A DNA stretch of 64,000 bases, taken from positions 4,526,001 through 4,590,000 of the forward strand of contig NC_089436.1 of assembly GCF_026210795.1 (NCBI RefSeq), in the 5' to 3' direction. The notes under the pieces were generated by a model, which was given only the letters and a program-made list of their open reading frames with translations, made no database searches and was not told where the DNA came from. Made by a program: the position numbers and the translations under genes. Of this stretch, positions 3,417-56,499 are shown in pieces; position 1 is the first letter of the stretch, and every line of letters starts with the position of its first letter. This stretch comes from Rhizophagus irregularis. Its lineage: Eukaryota; Glomeromycota; Glomeromycetes; Glomerales; Glomeraceae.

Positions 3417-3889
3417 GGCATTGTTATCATCGTGGAAGAATAAAAGTCTGAAGCTTTAGTATATGATATCTCTTCCTTTTCGTCATTGTTACCAATATTT
3501 GATAATATTTCCATTGCTATTTAAGGTATTATATACTAGGAAAACGGAAACCGTTGAGGGTCCATCGCTATAATTTACATATACTGTATTACATTACAAA
3601 ATGTGTTGCTCGTTACAAAAAATGTGATACAAAACATAAAAGAAATAAGCAGGATAGTGACGTAGGTGGAAGGAAGGAACAATACATGGGTTAAACCGGT
3701 ACTACAAATTTATCTAGTTTCGTACAATAAATAGTCCTTCGCTATGCTCCGAACAATAAAGCTTTTTACTATATGATAAGGAATCAAAAAATATATTACA
3801 TAATCAATTAACATATCATATTTTTGTGTAACATTGTATTTTGAGTTTTCATTTTCTTCTTATTCAAAAGATTCCGAAAGATCTGATAA

Positions 3890-4085
3890 AACGTTTCCAC
3901 TATGAAAATCACGATGTACGTATCCATGATATATATAACCTTTAGTCCTTTTGTTATTCCTAATAACTGATATCAATCAATTTCAACAAAATCATCTTGA
4001 AGATATTGACGTAAATCTTCCCGCTTGCATATTGCATAACCAAAATATAATCATTGGTCTTTTTTCCGAACTTATTATAGTATAA
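3890..4085 (-). pseudogene. Protein kinase fragment (degraded)
   Basis: Read on the minus strand, pieces in three frames recall a kinase core: YILVMQYAS (hinge), then EDLRQYLQDDFVEID followed by an in-frame TGA where a Trp would be expected, then YQLLGITKGL, then HGYVHRDFHSG (catalytic loop HRD with the following residues). The frame changes mean at least two indels. No complete kinase can be read here. It is probably a relic of the same expanded kinase family as the gene at 7416-10844. Confidence 0.55.
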
Positions 4086-5150: not shown

Positions 5151-5530
5151 ATAGTAAATAATTAATTTTTTTATTTTGTATTTTTTTTTTCAAATACTCT
5201 AACAATTTAGCAAAATTTTTTATTTTTTAAAATTTTTTTTTATCTTCATATTTGAATTGAAAAAGGTGTATTTTTTACATTTTTAAAGTTAATAAAATAA
5301 AGAACATTTAAATATATTTTACATTTAAAAAAAACTATTTTACAGTTCTTTTCTAATTAGTCAGAACTGTTTTCGCGCAATAACTCGCTATCCAGTGATC
5401 ATAAAAATATGATTAATGGATCATTAGAATCCACTCATAGAGAGCTTTCAAATGGTACCAAAATAACCTTTCTAGCATCAATAGATGGCGAGTTATTCAT
5501 GTAAATATTTTAAAAATTATCTCATCATCT

Positions 5531-5967
5531 TAAGGTTGCTTGCCGAAATCAAGTAGTTTAGGCCAAGGCCGAAACTTTTTTAAAACCGAAAGTTTAGGCA
5601 ATTAAAAGTAAATTTGCCGAAATTATACAATGCCGAAACTTTTACCGAAAGGCCGAAATTTGGCCGAAATTATTGGCCAACATTAATACTATAATTCTGG
5701 CCGGAATAATGATCGACGTGTAAATTTCCTTTTATGGAAATTTGTGTAACATTTGTGTGACACATTTCTCCGATTTTACTGGGAAACAAAATTTCCTTTT
5801 TTGGAAATTTGTGTAACGTCACGTGACACAATATTATAATTTCGGCCGAATTTTAATTTTGGCCAAAATTAAGACCGAGTTTCGGCCTAATTTCGGCATT
5901 TTCGGCATTTGATTTGATTGGCCGAAACCTTTCGGAATTTCCTTTTTAGTTTCGGCAGGCAACCTTA
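5531..5967. mobile_element. hAT MITE, TAAGGTTGCTTGCC family (nested)
   Basis: It is flanked by a perfect 8-bp duplication, CATCATCT (5523-5530 and 5968-5975). Ends are TAAGGTTGCTTGCC and its near complement. The interior is rich in GGCCGAAA / TTTCGGCC motifs. It is inserted in the hAT element 4414-6243. Relatives are at 17119-17304 and 25014-25257. Confidence 0.85.
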
Positions 5968-6599: not shown

Positions 6600-7415
6600 A
6601 AGACAGCTACTGGAACTGTTAAAGACTTTAAAGTACTTCTGTACATACAATTTAAATAACAACTACTACTTCGTTGCACCTGAGTACCTATATAAAAACC
6701 TAAACTCAACACAACCATCCAAGAGTGTTTCGCTGGGATGCGACAGGCTCTTATCATCTCACGTGACTTTGTTCGAAATATTGGCAAAATTTTTTACCAG
6801 TTAAATATTTATCATAACTCCTCACATGACATAACTATCCACATGACCAAAATATCTAACGTAACCATGAATATCATCGATAAAATTTTTCTGAAGAAAA
6901 TTTTTTTTAAAGGTCCATTAATTTAATTTTTATTATTTTTATTTATTTTTATTTATTACTATGAGTGATTAGTGATAATTAATATTTAAATTTTACGAAC
7001 AAATTTAATTTTAAATGCTTTATGAATTTACATTATATAATTTTAAAAAATTATGGTAATAATGTAAAAGTTTATTCTGTATAAATAAGTATAATCACCA
7101 GTCTGATCATTTTCGACAAAAAAAAGTGATATTCAAATTATTTTAAGTATATATTACGTATTGAGAAGTATTAAGAAATTTTTCTTTGTTTTAAGATTTT
7201 TGCTGTGCAACAATGAGGCTTGATGATTGACATACATTTCAGTATATGTGCAAAATTTGTTTGTTATATATACAATTCTTGTACTTCTGATGTGCATAAT
7301 GCATTTTGCATAAATGTTATTACCATATACCTGTACTAATAAAGGCGTTTAATAATAAAAAGATATTTACATTATCTTTTCTAGTCAGAAAGAATTTTAA
7401 TATAATTATATAGTA
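6600..7415. other. Intergenic region upstream of the kinase gene
   Basis: No reading frame with coding character was seen. A TATATAAAA-like stretch occurs near 6690 and AT-rich DNA leads to the proposed kinase start at 7416. Promoter elements cannot be assigned from sequence alone. Confidence 0.3.
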
Positions 7416-10400
7416 ATGGCTCTTAATAATGATAAAGGTAATGATCATATATAATATAAACATTTAATACAATTGGAATTCTAATATTTTTAAACAAATT
7501 TACAATATAATAAAACTAGTTTCTGAATTTGAAGGAAGCAGTATTAAAGAACTCGAAGGAAAAGGTATATTAAACATGCTAAAATATTGAATTTTTATTT
7601 GTAAATACATATCTATAATAATACCTTATATAATATACAAATATAGCTTGTAAGTTAATAGGTCATCTTATAATTGAATAATGATGGAATTACTTATCAT
7701 TTTTATTACATTTCATGTAATTAATTAATTCATTAATGATTAACAATACTATAGTCAGTAAGTTATTAGTTATATTCTTTACTTTGTTTACTACTTTACA
7801 TAATATTCAAATAACTAAATTCTTTATTTAATTAACTACTTAATAATTAACTTGTATTACAGATGGTAAGTCACAATATTATATTTATTTGCTTAATATT
7901 TTATATGGCTTAACTAATTATTCTTAATTTAAACAACTAGATTGTAAGTGATATATTTAATTTACAATAAACACTTTTATATTATATTTATATTTATATT
8001 TAACTAATAATTAATTAATAATACTAGGGTGTAAGTTATAGATATCTATATTTCTATTATTTATATAATTTATACTAACTAAATTCTTTATTTAAAAATT
8101 ATTTTGTAATTTATTTTAGTTGGTAAGTTATAAATTCTCATTGCTATAATATTTAGTACATATAATTTAAACTAATTAAATTCTTTATTTAAAAAATTAT
8201 TTAATATAGGGAGTAAATTATTTATTTAATTCTATTATTAATTACCTATTATTATAATATTTACATAATTTAAAGTTTAAACTAACTGAATTCTTTATTT
8301 AAATAGATTGTAAGTTTATAAGTTATTTATTTAATTCTATTATTACTTATTGCTATAATATTTACATATAATTTAACTAACTAAATTTCTTTATTTAAAT
8401 AGATCGTAAGTTATAAGTTATTTATTTGATTATATTATTACTTATTATTATAATATTTACATATAATTTAAACTAACTAAATTCTTTATTTAAAAAATTA
8501 TTTTGTAATTTCTTTTAGTTGGTAAGTTATAAGTTATTTATTTAATTCTATTATTACTTATTGTTGTAATGTTTACATATAATTTAAACTAATTAAATTC
8601 TTTATTTAAAAAATTATTTTGTAATTTCTTTTAGTTGGTAAGTTATAAGTTATTACCTACTGTTATAATATTTACATATAATTTAAACTGACTAAATTCT
8701 TTATTTAATAGATCGTAAGTTATAAGCTATTTATTTAATTCTATTATTACCTATTGTTATAATATTTACATATAATTTAAACCTAACTAAATTCTTTATT
8801 TAAAAAATTATTTAATAATATAGGGTGTAAGTTATTTATTTAATTCTATTATTACTTATTGTTATAATATTTGCATATAATTTAAATTAGCTAAATCTTT
8901 GTTTAAAAATTATTTAATAATATAGGGGGTAAGTTATTTATTTAATTCTACTTACTGTTATAATATTTACATATAATTTAAATTAACTAAATTCTTTATT
9001 TAAATAGGATGTAAGTTATAAGTTATTTAATTCTATTATTACTTATTTATACAGTATAATATTTACATATAATTAAACTAACTAAATTCTTTTGTTTAAA
9101 ATTATTTAATAATATAGGGGGTAAGTTATTAATTTAATTCTATTATTACTTATTTATATAATATTTATATATAATTTAACCTAACTAAATTCTTTATTTA
9201 AAAAAGTATTTAATAATGACAATGGAGAGAGTAAGTTATTTATTTAATTCTATTATTACTTATTGTTATAATATATACATATAATATTACTAACTAAATT
9301 CTTTATTTAAATAGATTGTAAGTTATAAGTTATTTATTTAATTCTATTATTATTTATTGTTATAATATTTACATATAATTTAAACTAACTAAATTTTTTA
9401 CTTATAAAAATTATTTACTAATAATATAGCTTGTAAGTTATTTGTTGTTTCTATTATTATGTATTTATAAATATTTATTTGTTAATTGAATTCTTTATAC
9501 AAAATTTCTGTTACTTTAGTTGGTAAGTTGTAAAATATGGGTTATATATTATTATATATTTATACAAAAGCTAAGATATATATTGTATTAAACTTCTATT
9601 TAAATTTTAGAGTAAGTGTTGGTTTTAATTTTAAATTTTAGTGTAATTTTTAATAAGCTTCAATAATAATTTTATTTATTTATATAGATTTGGAAAAAGT
9701 GGAAATACAATTATGGATAATTTTATTTTGAAAAAAAAATTAAAATGGATTCCTTATAATAAATTTAAAAATGTTAAATATCTTGATAAAGGAGGATTTG
9801 GTACTGTATACAGAGCTATTTGGTTTTGTTATAATAAATATTATGATGTGATTCTTAAATGTCATAATAATTTAAGTGAAAATTTAAATGAATTTTTAAA
9901 TGAAGTATGTTAATATGTTATTTATTTTTTTAATTTAAATTATAATTTATTTATACTAATATATTGTTACTTTTTTATAGTGGGAATATCATGGAAGTTA
10001 TTTAAATTCATATGATATTATTTATTTTTTTGGGTTTACAAAAGATCCAGATACTTTGGAATATATGGTAGTAATGGATTATGCAAACAAAGGTAATTTA
10101 AGAGGAAACTTAACAAGAATAAACAAAAGTGGTTGGTGTCAAAAATTATATATGTTATTTGGAATTATCTCTGGACTTGATGATATACATATACAAAATC
10201 TTATTCATTGTGATTTTCATGATGGCAATATTTTAAATCATAATGAAAGTAAAATTTATATTAGTGATTTAGGATTATGTAAACCTGTTAAATCGTCTTT
10301 GAAAAAAGATGGTATTTATGGTGTTATGCCATTTATGGCACCAGAAGTTTTAAGAGGCAATTCTTATACTCCAGCTAGCGATATATATAGTTTTTCTATG

Positions 10401-10844
10401 ATTATGTGGGAATTTACATCTGGGATACCACCATTTAACAATAGAGCACATGATATTCAACTTAGTTTAAGTATTTGTGAAGGTGAACGTCCTGGAATTA
10501 TTGAAAATACTCCACAATGTTATATAGATTTGATGAAAATGTGCTGGGATGGAAGCCCTTTAAAAAGGCCATCTTCCAAAGAAGTGTTAAATATTATTAA
10601 GGAATGGGTTTCTCTTCCAGATAATGTGAAAGTTGAAGATATTAATGAAGAATTAAAATGCAATATTATGGAATTTATAAATGCACCAATTGGACATAAC
10701 AATAATCTTGCTATGGAATTTCATCCACAAGCATATTATACAAGTCGCCTATTTGATTTTACTAGTAAACAGTTGAATGAAAATCTTGAAAGTGAAGATT
10801 TGAATGATGTTATAATTAAAGATATGAAGTCATTAGGTTTGTAA
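7416..10844 (+). CDS. Protein kinase (Tyr-kinase-like type) with a microexon-built N-terminus
   Basis: The proposed 25 exons are 7416-7437, 7520-7564, twenty 3-nt exons, one 1-nt exon (9611), 9688-9904 and 9981-10844. They sum to 1209 nt, a 402-residue protein. The kinase domain shows the glycine loop GGFGTVY (about residues 78-84), the beta-3 Lys in DVILK (about 100), the catalytic loop HCDFHDGN (about 191-198), DLG in place of DFG (about 211) and APE (about 235). HCD replaces HRD but Asp193 and Asn198 are kept, so the enzyme may be active. The intron at 9905-9980 is unambiguous. The upstream part is inferred from splice signals and frame; a shorter form starting at the ATG at 9713 is the alternative. 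It belongs to the expanded fungal kinase family typical of Rhizophagus. Confidence 0.75.
7647..9687 (+). repeat. Tandem array of introns separated by 3-nt microexons
   Basis: Repeats of about 75 to 113 bp each start GTAAGT (one GTAAAT), carry CTAACTAAA or similar near the end as a branch-point-like motif, and end in AG. Exactly three bases separate one AG from the next GT in twenty successive cases: 7647 ctt, 7755 tca, 7863 atg, 7941 att, 8028 ggt, 8120 ttg, 8210 gga, 8307 att, 8403 atc, 8519 ttg, 8635 ttg, 8712 atc, 8824 ggt, 8926 ggg, 9008 gat, 9118 ggg, 9228 aga, 9315 att, 9430 ctt, 9520 ttg. A single base (9611 a) follows between the last two introns. The repeat body is well conserved while the triplets vary. 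Confidence 0.7.
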
Positions 10845-22538: not shown

Positions 22539-24117
22539 TAGAGCTCCGCACAAGTCGGGTCGGGTCGGGTTACCTGGTTAACCCGAACCGAAATTTTTTT
22601 TCAGGTCAGGTCGGGTCGGGTAAACCGTTCTGACCCGACCTGACCCATTTGACCCGAAAGTATTCAGGTCACTTCGGATAACTCAGGTTACCCGAAGTTT
22701 TATTATTAAATATTTCAATTAAAAAAACGTTATGTAACATTTTTTTTTTATTAATTATACAAAAAACGTCAGGTTCGACGTTTTTAATTAAAAAAAAGAT
22801 TTTTTTTAATTTTTATTGAAAAAACGTCGGGTCCCGGCATTTTACTTTTGTTTTTATATATAAAAACGCCGAAACTATTTGTTTCAGCATTTTTGTTTCG
22901 ATCTTAGATGTAAAAACGCCGGAATCATTAGTTCCGGCGTTTTTCATTTTGATTTTACATGTAAAAACACCGGAATCATTAGTTCCGGCATTTTTCATAT
23001 TGATTTTACATGTAAAAACGCTGAAACTGATAGTTCTGGCGTTTTTCATTTTGATTTTACATGTAAAAACGCCGGAATCATTAGTTCCGGCATTTTTCAT
23101 ATTGATTTTACATGTAAAAATGCCGAAACTGATAGTTCCGGCATTCTTTTTTTCAATTTTACATGTAAAAATGCCAGAATCATTAGTTCCGGCATTTTTC
23201 ATTTTGATTTTACATGTAAAAACGCCGAAACTATTAGTTTCGGCGTTTTTTTTTCAATTTTACATGTAAAAACGCCGGAATCATTAGTTCCGGCATTTTT
23301 CATATTGATTTTACATGTAAAAACGCCGAAACTGATAGTTCCGGCATTTTTTTTTTCAATTTTACATGTAAAACGCCGGAATCATTAGTTCCGGCGTTTT
23401 TCATATTGATTTTACATGTAAAAACGCCGGAATCATTAGTTCCGGCATTTTTCATTTTGATTTTACATGTAAAAATGCCGGAATCATTAGTTCCGGTGTT
23501 TTTCATTTTGATTTTACATGTAAAAACGCTGAAACTGATAGTTCCGGCGTTTTTTTTTCAATTTTACATGTAAAAACGCCGGAATCATTAGTTCCGGCGT
23601 TTTTCATTTTGATTTTACATGTAAAAACGCTGAAACTATTAGTTTCGGCATTTTTTTTTTCAATTTTACATGTAAAAACGCCGGAATCATTAGTTCCGGC
23701 ATTTTTGCATATTGATTTTACATAAAAATGCCGAAACTGATAGTTTCGGCATTTTTTTTCAATTTTACATGTAAAAACGCCGGAATCATTAGTTCCGGCA
23801 TTTTTCATTTTGATTTTACATGTAAAAACGCCGAAACTATTAGTTTCGGCGTTTTTTTTCAATTTTACATGTAAAAACGCCGGAATCATTAGTTCCGGCG
23901 GTTTTCCTTTTGATTTTACATGTAAAAACGCCAGAACTATTAGTTTCGGTGTTTTTAATTTATTTGACCCAAATATATGTCGGGTCAACGAGTCGGGTCG
24001 GGTACCGACTAGCACTGACCCAACCCGTGTCAGGTCATGAAATTGATGACCTGACCTGAATATTTCGGGTCAACCCGTCAGGTCACCCGATCTGTCAGGT
24101 CAGGTTGCGGAGCTCTA
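22539..24117. mobile_element. hAT-like element filled with a hairpin satellite
   Basis: It has a perfect 8-bp duplication AAAAGAAT (22531-22538 and 24118-24125). Ends are TAGAGCTCCGCAC and, inverted, TAGAGCTCCGCAACC. Subterminal arms are made of GGGTCGGGTC / GACCTGACC motifs. The core is the tandem repeat at 22860-23960. It has no transposase. Confidence 0.85.
22860..23960. repeat. Hairpin satellite, unit about 57 bp, roughly 19 copies
   Basis: Each unit joins a palindrome TTTTACATGTAAAA to a hairpin such as CGCCGGAATCATTAGTTCCGG or GCCGAAACTGATAGTTCCGGC, each flanked by A and T runs. ORFs on both strands here are translations of the repeat and are not genes. Confidence 0.9.
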
Positions 24118-55204: not shown

Positions 55205-56395
55205 CAAATGTTGAGAAATTTTTCAGAAATTTTAGTCAAATTTTTAGTAATTTTATGCAAACGTAATGAAAATTGTGGTGAATTTAGTCAAAATTTTTAG
55301 TAATTTTATGTAAACGAAGTGCAAATTGTGGTGAATTTAGTCAAATTTTTAGTAATGTTATGTAAACGTAATGCAAATTGTAGTGAATTTAGTCAAATTT
55401 TTAGTAATGTTATGTAAACGAAGTGCAAATTGTGGTGAATTTAGGTAAATTTTTAGTAATTTTATGTAAACGTAATGCAAATTGTAGTGAATTTAGTCAA
55501 ATTTTTAGTAATTTTATGTAAACGTAATGAAAATTGTGGTGAATTTAGTCAAATTTTTAGTAATTTTATGTAAACGAAGTGCAAATTGTGGTGAATTTAG
55601 GTAAATTTTTAGTAATTTTATGTAAACGTAATGCAAATTGTAGTGAATTTAGTCAAATTTTTAGTAATTTTATGTAAACGTAATGAAAATTGTGGTGAAT
55701 TTAGTCAAATTTTTAGTAATGTTATGTAAACGAAGTGCAAATTGTAATGAATTTAGGTAAATTTTTAGTAATTTTATGTAAACGAAGTGCAAATTGTGGT
55801 GAATTTAGTCAAATTTTTAGTAATGTTATATAAACGTAATGAAAATTGTGGTGAATTTAGTCAAATTTTTAGTAATGTTATGTAAACGTAATGAAAATTG
55901 TGGTGAATTTAGTCAAATTTTTAGTAATTTTATGTAAACGAAGTGCAAATTGTGGTGAATTTAGTCAAATTTTTAGTAATGTTATGTAAACGAAGTGCAA
56001 ATTGTGGTGAATTTAGTCAAATTTTTAGTAATGTTATGTAAACGTAATGAAAATTGTGGTGAATTTAGGTAAATTTTTAGTAATGTTATGTAAACGTAAT
56101 GAAAATTGTGGTGAATTTAGTCAAATTTTTAGTAATTTTATGTAAACGAAGTGCAAATTGTGGTGAATTTAGTCAAATTTTTAGTAATGTTATGTAAACG
56201 AAGTGCAAATTGTGGTGAATTTAGTCAAATTTTTAGTAATGTTATGTAAACGTAATGAAAATTGTGGTGAATTTAGGTAAATTTTTAGTAATATTATGTA
56301 AACGTAATGCAAATTGTGGTGAATTTAGGTAAATTTTTAGTAATTTTATGTAAACGAAGTGCAAATTGTGGTGAATTTAGGTAAATTTTTAGTAA
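55205..56395. repeat. Left subterminal satellite, 51-bp unit, about 23 copies
   Basis: The unit contains AATTTAGTCAAATTTTTAGT, then AATTTTATGTAAACGAAGTG and AAATTGTGGTG. Two variants (GTAATGAAA and GAAGTGCAA) alternate in blocks, which suggests higher-order duplication. Confidence 0.9.
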
Positions 56396-56499
56396 TGACG
56401 CCAAATTTACCAAATTTGAAATAAAAATTGTCAAAAATATTACATATATTTTGATATTTATTATATAATCCATTAATATCCCTACATATTCTTCCTACA

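Follow-up and report, generated by a model that had tools for sequence, protein, structure and literature searches.

Part of a protein kinase of the root-symbiotic fungus Rhizophagus irregularis, and of each of its many relatives in the same genome, appears to be built from consecutive exons of three nucleotides (nt). The gene at issue lies in the window, a stretch of 64,000 nt (C8:4526001-4590000) from whose first base all window coordinates count. Taken as a whole, the region is very probably best explained as the 5' portion of a gene belonging to a large kinase family of R. irregularis, in which a short N-terminal segment is encoded by tandem units of an intron plus a 3-nt exon (20 here), closed by a 1-nt exon, included in full and in order, and grown by duplication. 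The structure recurs throughout the family, keeps an open reading frame, and avoids stop codons in a way that depends on consecutive joining of the triplets. A first-pass annotation of the window is thereby partly supported: its exon structure is borne out, and its suggestion that protein variants arise by skipping of single triplets is not.

Exon structure of the window gene and its relatives

Exactly 20 AGnnnGTAA sites are present from 7645 to 9527, matching the 20 consecutive triplets originally proposed. Recomputed lengths also agree with the 22 introns of 74-113 nt described between 7565 and 9687. The donor GTAAGT had been assigned to every one of these introns; it is found in 20 of the 22, the other two carrying GTATAT at 7565 and GTAAAT at 8213. 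Spliced in silico, the gene consists of 25 exons totaling 1,209 nt and is open from the ATG at 7416 to the stop codon ending at 10844. The spliced frame contains AFNDWFGNYLVDRWGWENSF exactly as first written, and with the single A at 9611, which had been predicted to give entry into the kinase frame, it stays open into kinase exons K1 and K2. The exons are as follows.

7416..7437, forward strand: exon 1, MALNNDK plus 1 nt (length 1 mod 3)
7520..7564, forward strand: exon 2, VSEFEGSSIKELEGK, 45 nt, acidic and repeat-like
7647..7649, forward strand: microexon 1, CTT
7755..7757, forward strand: microexon 2, TCA
7863..7865, forward strand: microexon 3, ATG
7941..7943, forward strand: microexon 4, ATT
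8028..8030, forward strand: microexon 5, GGT, completing a conserved Trp codon (T/GG)
8120..8122, forward strand: microexon 6, TTG
8210..8212, forward strand: microexon 7, GGA
8307..8309, forward strand: microexon 8, ATT
8403..8405, forward strand: microexon 9, ATC
8519..8521, forward strand: microexon 10, TTG
8635..8637, forward strand: microexon 11, TTG
8712..8714, forward strand: microexon 12, ATC
8824..8826, forward strand: microexon 13, GGT
8926..8928, forward strand: microexon 14, GGG
9008..9010, forward strand: microexon 15, GAT
9118..9120, forward strand: microexon 16, GGG
9228..9230, forward strand: microexon 17, AGA
9315..9317, forward strand: microexon 18, ATT
9430..9432, forward strand: microexon 19, CTT, part of the common array end CTT-TTG-A
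9520..9522, forward strand: microexon 20, TTG, part of the common array end CTT-TTG-A
9611..9611, forward strand: 1-nt exon, A, the single base ahead of the kinase exon
9688..9904, forward strand: kinase exon K1 (EFGKSGN...GGFG...)
9981..10844, forward strand: kinase exon K2, with the stop codon (PF07714, E 2e-30; PF00069, E 9.1e-29)

The profile matches of K2 reach 106.4 bits for PF07714 (cut-off 23.1) and 101.1 bits for PF00069 (cut-off 31.7), both above the curated cut-off, and identify an ordinary protein-kinase domain in the spliced frame.

Searches of the whole genome (146.75 Mb; 146,748,485 bases on 32 contigs) place this gene in a kinase family that goes beyond what the first-pass annotation recognized. 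A pattern of two microexons and three donors (GTAAGT-N60-90-TAG-NNN-GTAAGT-N60-90-TAG-NNN-GTAAGT) has 1,207 matches in the genome, where both the reversed pattern and the same pattern with 4-nt exons have none. The strict 3' end of an array (TTG, intron, 1-nt A) is matched 89 times on many contigs, and TTTAG-A-GTAAG followed by an AG-ATTTGG exon 96 times, each with a control count of 0. BLAST with the window array returned at least 194 matches to related arrays on many contigs, the best 36 of 349 candidates having been scored. A query with the spliced N-terminus found at least 150 kinase first exons among the matches listed, a check for an upstream array having covered part of them; these 150 start at query residues 40-46, except for four (27, 35, 36 and 38). 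The strict 3' pattern is present in 13 of 21 discovery loci, so that 89 matches suggest ~144 arrays; of the 1,207 strict matches, 210 fall within the 36 arrays analyzed, which points to ~200. Both figures are rough extrapolations, most discovery loci having been chosen by similarity, and the family perhaps comprises 140-200 genes.

Thirty-six arrays with 1,143 parsed microexons were analyzed. The discovery set is the window plus loci L001-L020, taken from BLAST and pattern lists; the validation set, L021-L035, is every fifth of 76 unfetched 3' ends, chosen by a rule fixed before fetching. A kinase exon lies downstream of the array in all 36 loci. K1 is free of stops in every case (L020 only in part), as is K2 in 34 of the 35 seen (L020 is cut). 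Members share a plan of exon 1 (1 mod 3), an optional exon 2, the triplets, one base, and the A-TTT-GG of the kinase exon. Arrays hold from 8 to 78 parsed triplets with a median of 31, although six begin fewer than 250 bases from the fetched end and may be cut. The order of triplets often opens with CTC-TNN-ATG-ATT-GGT, continues into a variable middle and usually ends with CTT-TTG, and Trp is among the first six array residues in 32 of the 36 arrays. Exon 1 was found by regular expression in 21 loci and is 1 mod 3 in 20. In the exception, L015, an inner ATG was caught, and from the upstream ATG the exon is 22 nt, also 1 mod 3; in the other 15 loci exon 1 was not found or lies outside the fetched stretch. 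Exon 2 is 0 mod 3 in 13 of 16 hits, the window included, and the single base before the kinase exon is A in 32 of 36 loci by a simple regular expression.

The family also bears on where the window gene begins. A transcription or translation start just before 9713, which had been named as an outcome contrary to the array model, is weakened by the fact that the Met at this place is Ile, Leu or Val in 21 of 29 K1 exons with a usable start (seven loci were unusable). It is weakened further by the conserved frame that runs upstream of that Met.

Splice signals are present at the units throughout the family, both as canonical donors and as branch-like motifs. GTAAGT stands at 1,051 of 1,143 parsed donors. 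When all GTAAGT inside the 36 arrays are taken, unselected for spacing, 1,041 of 1,070 lie exactly 3 nt past [TC]AG, and a single one has the spacing of 0 that would join AG to GT as in a ratchet intron. Introns average 95.8±10.9 nt, with lengths mod 3 distributed 366/325/352. Exact CTAAC, the branch-like motif noted earlier, occurs in 502 of 1,043 introns as against 26 shuffled ones; the introns are copies of one another, so these are not 502 independent cases. The looser YTRAY is uninformative, being found in 1,035 of 1,043 introns yet in 958 shuffled ones, and the AG and G[TC] that the parser itself demands are no independent evidence. The entropy profile agrees with the description of conserved intron bodies and differing triplets: donor positions +1 to +6 have at most 0.16 bit, the triplet positions 1.86, 1.34 and 1.98 bits, and other profiled intron positions, the fixed AG aside, 0.36-1.72 bits. 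No profiled position varies more than the first and third of the triplet, which lie beside the most conserved ones.

GC donors number 13 of 1,143, eight of them in L008. This locus repeats a TTG-type microexon and its GCAAGT donor (a GC-AG intron) along with the units, eight times in all, for example at 2116-2342 and 2641-2860, so a rare donor type has spread by duplication.

Several other features of these loci are worth recording. Some 67 kb beyond the window gene, in the downstream direction and in the same orientation, the contig carries a second array gene, L001 (G000:C8:4602202-4605089). In L015 (4521-5423) the kinase first-exon match begins ~900 bp past the last parsed triplet, a gap that an insertion in the last intron would explain. 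Exon 1 of L004, L012 and L016 reads MGQCIGK or MGQCISK, which we take to resemble an N-myristoylation/palmitoylation start; other members start MDQC.. or MALNND... Exon 2 of L007, L010-L013 and L030 consists of degenerate acidic repeats of the type EEFEGSGT, 40-43 residues long and shorter elsewhere, and forms a second repeat-built segment ahead of the microexon array in those loci. In the window itself, two more tandem arrays with units of 51 and 52 bp and ~22 copies each occupy 22834-23961 and 55231-56396. A 21-base sequence on the reverse strand at 5428-5448, ~2 kb upstream of the kinase gene, is identical at eight places on seven contigs and is probably part of a dispersed repeat.

Stop codons at microexon junctions

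In phase 1, each codon takes its first base from the end of one microexon and its other two from the start of the next. The two parts of such a codon are ~96 nt apart in the DNA, where neither the sequence as such nor local splice signals would be expected to link them, and they come together only in spliced RNA. Consecutive joining followed by translation therefore requires that no triplet ending in T precede one that starts with AA, AG or GA. Arrays were parsed with a donor/acceptor weight matrix that was trained on the discovery loci, allowed GC donors and was blind to the triplet. Junctions of at most 165 bp were counted, and microexon order was shuffled within each array for comparison.

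A single phase-1 stop is found among 1,043 adjacent junctions, compared with 39.9±4.9 in shuffles, and 0 of 2,000 shuffles are as low. The discovery set alone has 0 of 682 (26.7±4.0) and the validation set alone 1 of 361 (13.2±2.8); none of 2,000 shuffles is as low in either. The same neighbor pairs taken in reverse order give 46 stops, and the other straddling register gives 152 where 130.5 are expected. As a guard against copies of copies, unique combinations of array and pair were also counted, with 1 stop in 817 at lag 1 and 24 in 758 at lag 2 (Fisher 3e-7). Where the expectation for a single array reaches 1 or more, as it does in 16 arrays, no stop is present. Depletion affects TAG (0 versus 25.1 expected), TAA (1 versus 8.8) and TGA (0 versus 6.0), and non-stop codons lack it (AAG 44 versus 31.3, GAG 47 versus 27.3, TGG 92 versus 63.9, TAT 76 versus 87.6). 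This avoidance at adjacent junctions only bears out the original proposal of one-codon exons in tandem read in phase 1, and we regard it as strong evidence, from sequence, that selection acts on the arrays as single-codon exons that are spliced consecutively and translated.

A first, strict parse that accepted GTAAGT and GTAAAT donors only gave 10 stops among 706 microexons. All ten fell at gaps of 193-323 bp, and a further AG-NNN-GT candidate is present in eight of these gaps. Because the stops were confined to long gaps, the arrays were parsed again with the weight matrix and the 165 bp limit; this change was made after the validation rule, which had foreseen identical parsing for the validation set, was fixed and before any validation triplet was inspected. 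The strict parser with a 600 bp limit gives 10 of 685 in the discovery set (30.4±4.0) and 3 of 360 in the validation set (12.5±2.7), with none of 1,000 shuffles as low, and with a 165 bp limit it gives 1 of 319 in the validation set (11.0±2.6). Weight-matrix counts at cut-offs of 130, 165, 200 and 600 bp are 1/1,039, 1/1,043, 3/1,061 and 8/1,107. Register 0, in which each triplet is itself a codon, was considered and rejected: it is nearly open (3/1,143 stops) and reads as a hydrophobic string (mean hydropathy 1.42 versus -1.01 in phase 1) that the flanking exons do not fit. Shuffling cannot alter its stop count, and register 0 therefore does not compete with phase 1 in that test.

Order dependence also decides against the idea that the array is an intron-derived tandem repeat within one long intron, removed whole or recursively, with triplets that are never translated. 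Skipping all triplets does keep exon 2, A and the kinase exon in one frame; the repeats are tandem copies that have diverged, and intron identity is higher within arrays (0.750) than between them (0.724), which fits local duplication. However, one long intron gives no cause for stops to be avoided across ~96 nt in one direction and one register, and it leaves unexplained both the spacing of 3 (1,041/1,070) and the zero runs of 4-nt exons in the genome. A single satellite-like intron is ruled out by the order-dependent stop avoidance, and we judge this explanation in its general form to be very improbable.

Even less probable is an assembly artefact or a set of decayed pseudogenes. According to the part of its description available, the R. 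irregularis DAOM197198 assembly is Nanopore-based, polished with Illumina reads, and has a quality value (QV) of 36.27 (PMC10234402), so a few single-base errors per array are possible. Apparent indels, few in number, do occur in units, and among 35 K2 exons one has a stop and one a frame break. Against this, arrays with a common plan are found on many contigs (89 strict 3' ends), K1 and nearly all K2 exons lack stops, and the same description reports uniform read coverage (PMC10234402). Stop avoidance, moreover, would not survive in pseudogenes.

The first-pass annotation favored cassette use of the triplets, in which single ones are often and usefully skipped to yield many isoforms that differ by single residues. 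Every triplet is indeed frame-neutral. Stops at lag 2 are also slightly below the shuffled mean, at 30 of 962 versus 36.7±4.8 (204 of 2,000 shuffles as low), with the validation set leaning lower, at 7 of 329 versus 11.9±2.8 (109 of 2,000). But this is close to chance, whereas selected skipping would require avoidance at lags 2 and 3 like that at lag 1. Unique pairs at lags 2, 3 and 4 have 24/758, 30/724 and 29/687 stops, compared with 1/817 for neighbors, and in the window array 3 of 20 single skips (microexon 14, 16 or 20) create a stop. Useful skipping is thus unlikely. As far as sequence can tell, selection has acted on arrays that are included in full; an occasional skip is compatible with the data and a dedicated skipping code is not supported. 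Diversity lies between paralogues with different arrays and not demonstrably between isoforms.

Array evolution

Array interiors differ strongly between close paralogues. In twelve close kinase pairs, with synonymous divergence (dS) of 0.066-0.09 among those listed, array similarity ratios are 0.19-0.53. Most of these pairs share only the first and last few triplets, for example L005/L022 (38 versus 15 triplets) and L001/L025 (30 versus 8); a few, such as L006/L007, L012/L026 and L013/L034, also have short inner runs of 2-3 triplets in common. L020 contains a multi-unit triplet run twice, and one intron of either copy carries a foreign insertion closely similar to that in the other, the pattern expected from block duplication. 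The earlier proposal that the arrays grow by tandem duplication of intron-plus-triplet units is supported. The foreign insertions of L020 occupy three array introns (3762-4051, 5479-5742 and 7162-7426) and are closely similar, the last two lying in the repeated run.

A retrocopy of the spliced mRNA would have been near-proof of triplet inclusion. Among the pattern candidates, L036 alone has the spliced form; it lacks a kinase match, and its frame is full of stops. The candidate in L017 is a chance open frame in the last intron, and L037-L039 are ordinary kinase exon starts.

A number of observations weigh against full inclusion in an intact, constrained gene family. No retrocopy of the spliced form was found with two spliced-junction patterns or among the at least 150 matches listed for the spliced-protein query. 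Constraint on the kinase is moderate: the pairwise ratio of nonsynonymous to synonymous divergence (dN/dS) has a median of 0.57 (interquartile range 0.49-0.68), is below 1 in 581 of 595 non-independent pairs, and ranges from 0.66 to 1.34 in the 15 closest pairs; overall, the family thus evolves rapidly. One adjacent stop (CGT/AAC) is present in L022 near 3189, in an array that also has unusual triplets; a decayed gene or an assembly error would fit. Sixty-four junctions longer than 165 bp, with insertions, non-canonical donors or units that are apparently broken or missed, were excluded from the count. They hold 7 stops and behave like wrong joins, and some may be real defects or errors of the Nanopore assembly. 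L025 has an internal stop in K2 and L012 a frame break near 7496-7499 in otherwise intact kinases, possibly as pseudogenes or assembly errors. Three of the 16 exon-2 hits are not 0 mod 3; those in L019 and L034 contain stops and are probably false, and that in L033 is 59 nt. The single base is G in L017, also on inspection; the regular expression gives T for L010 and C for L020, and it finds no such base in L018. Finally, it is from selection that we infer inclusion of the triplets in mRNA.

Splicing model and known systems

In fungi whose introns are short, it is the intron that serves as the unit of recognition, and the exon part of the donor paired by U1 comprises positions -3 to -1. Exons of a few nucleotides are thought to be hard for the spliceosome because neighboring splice sites cannot be occupied together. 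Two spliceosomes would hardly fit on both sides of a 3-nt exon, which makes sequential removal the simplest scheme. The spliceosome would take out the ~96-nt introns successively, presumably as a ratchet in 5'-to-3' order. Each step would add one triplet and rebuild the 5' splice site, the triplet serving as exon positions -3 to -1 before the next GTAAGT. Normally, all microexons would be included in genomic order and in phase 1. A 3-nt exon equals the exon part of the donor, so donor and triplet can be duplicated as a unit while the donor stays unchanged and is rebuilt at each ligation.

Tandem duplication or deletion of units would then add or remove one amino acid per unit, and this gain and loss could give each paralogue its own fast-changing segment. 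Phase-1 segments are hydrophilic overall (the mean hydropathy of -1.01 given above) and contain ~9% Trp, with biases specific to single arrays, such as His/Pro/Tyr in L004, Tyr/Asp/Trp/Asn in L005 and Arg/Asn/Lys/Glu/Trp in L008. The weakest step concerns biological role: these may be flexible interaction or regulatory segments that alter the partner binding or regulation of each kinase. We lean towards seeing the spliceosome here as a codon-depositing ratchet that builds N-terminal segments codon by codon, and unit duplication as the mutational engine that diversifies the ~140-200 kinase paralogues.

Tandem duplication of a segment with splice sites is known to multiply introns. In the arrays, unlike in that process, units of intron plus codon multiply, with one residue gained per duplication. 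Tiny exons, micro-exon genes (MEGs) and recursive splicing are likewise already known, and the machinery invoked here is ordinary splicing.

The nearest parallels differ in distinct ways. As described in the available parts of one account, Schistosoma MEGs form a multi-copy family with varying products, in which very short exons, most of them a multiple of three in length, follow one another; there are 10-20 such exons of 6-81 bp per gene (3-81 bp in the abstract), with introns of 0.1-5 kb, and the proteins are secreted (PMC10526429). The R. irregularis arrays resemble them in having runs of tiny exons in a multi-copy family. However, they have 3-nt exons, 8-78 parsed in a row, ~96-nt introns, tandem-duplicate units and a kinase product, which places them outside a class defined by exons of 6-81 bp and secreted parasite proteins. 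Exons of the same sizes as here are described, in the portions available, for Drosophila homothorax (a 3-bp micro-exon; PMC7392893), Fusarium CYP621A (1 nt; PMC12940212) and Arabidopsis APC11 (1 nt; PMC4674806). For APC11, simultaneous splicing of the flanking introns was argued to be very unlikely, and intron definition with recursive splicing was proposed (PMC4674806). Those exons are reported singly, whereas here dozens stand in a row in perhaps 140-200 genes, together with a family-wide 1-nt exon.

Recursive splicing is a further parallel. At ratchet points, use of the acceptor directly rebuilds a donor, and in the excerpted account this is how the Ubx microexons m1 and m2 are processed, to be kept or re-spliced (PMC8605326). 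The arrays would likewise rebuild a donor at the junction after each acceptor use. At ratchet points, however, acceptor and donor adjoin as they would around a 0-nt exon, and no trace is left in the mRNA. In the arrays the rebuilt donor lies past a triplet, so that each step would leave one triplet behind.

Among the matches listed for open-licence literature, no published description of a tandem array of one-codon exons was found. Nor was any report of microexons in R. irregularis among the matches listed, where PMC4014442, a Rhizoctonia genome paper containing both terms, was left aside. A 2024 Trichoderma paper, in the part available, calls functional microexons previously undescribed in filamentous fungi (PMC11121469).

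As a gene architecture, the array may deserve more than the status of a variant. Its one-codon exons, of which as many as 78 are parsed in succession, under strong selection for ordered full inclusion, would make it the most extreme test case known to us, and such arrays would be a ready substrate for work on splicing order and fidelity. The kinase family of this fungus is very large, and we expect standard gene finders and read mappers to miss the coding sequence of the arrays. They show a way in which proteins can evolve by one residue per duplication and, if the spliceosome does act on them as a codon-depositing ratchet, these kinases would have a gene architecture not described before.

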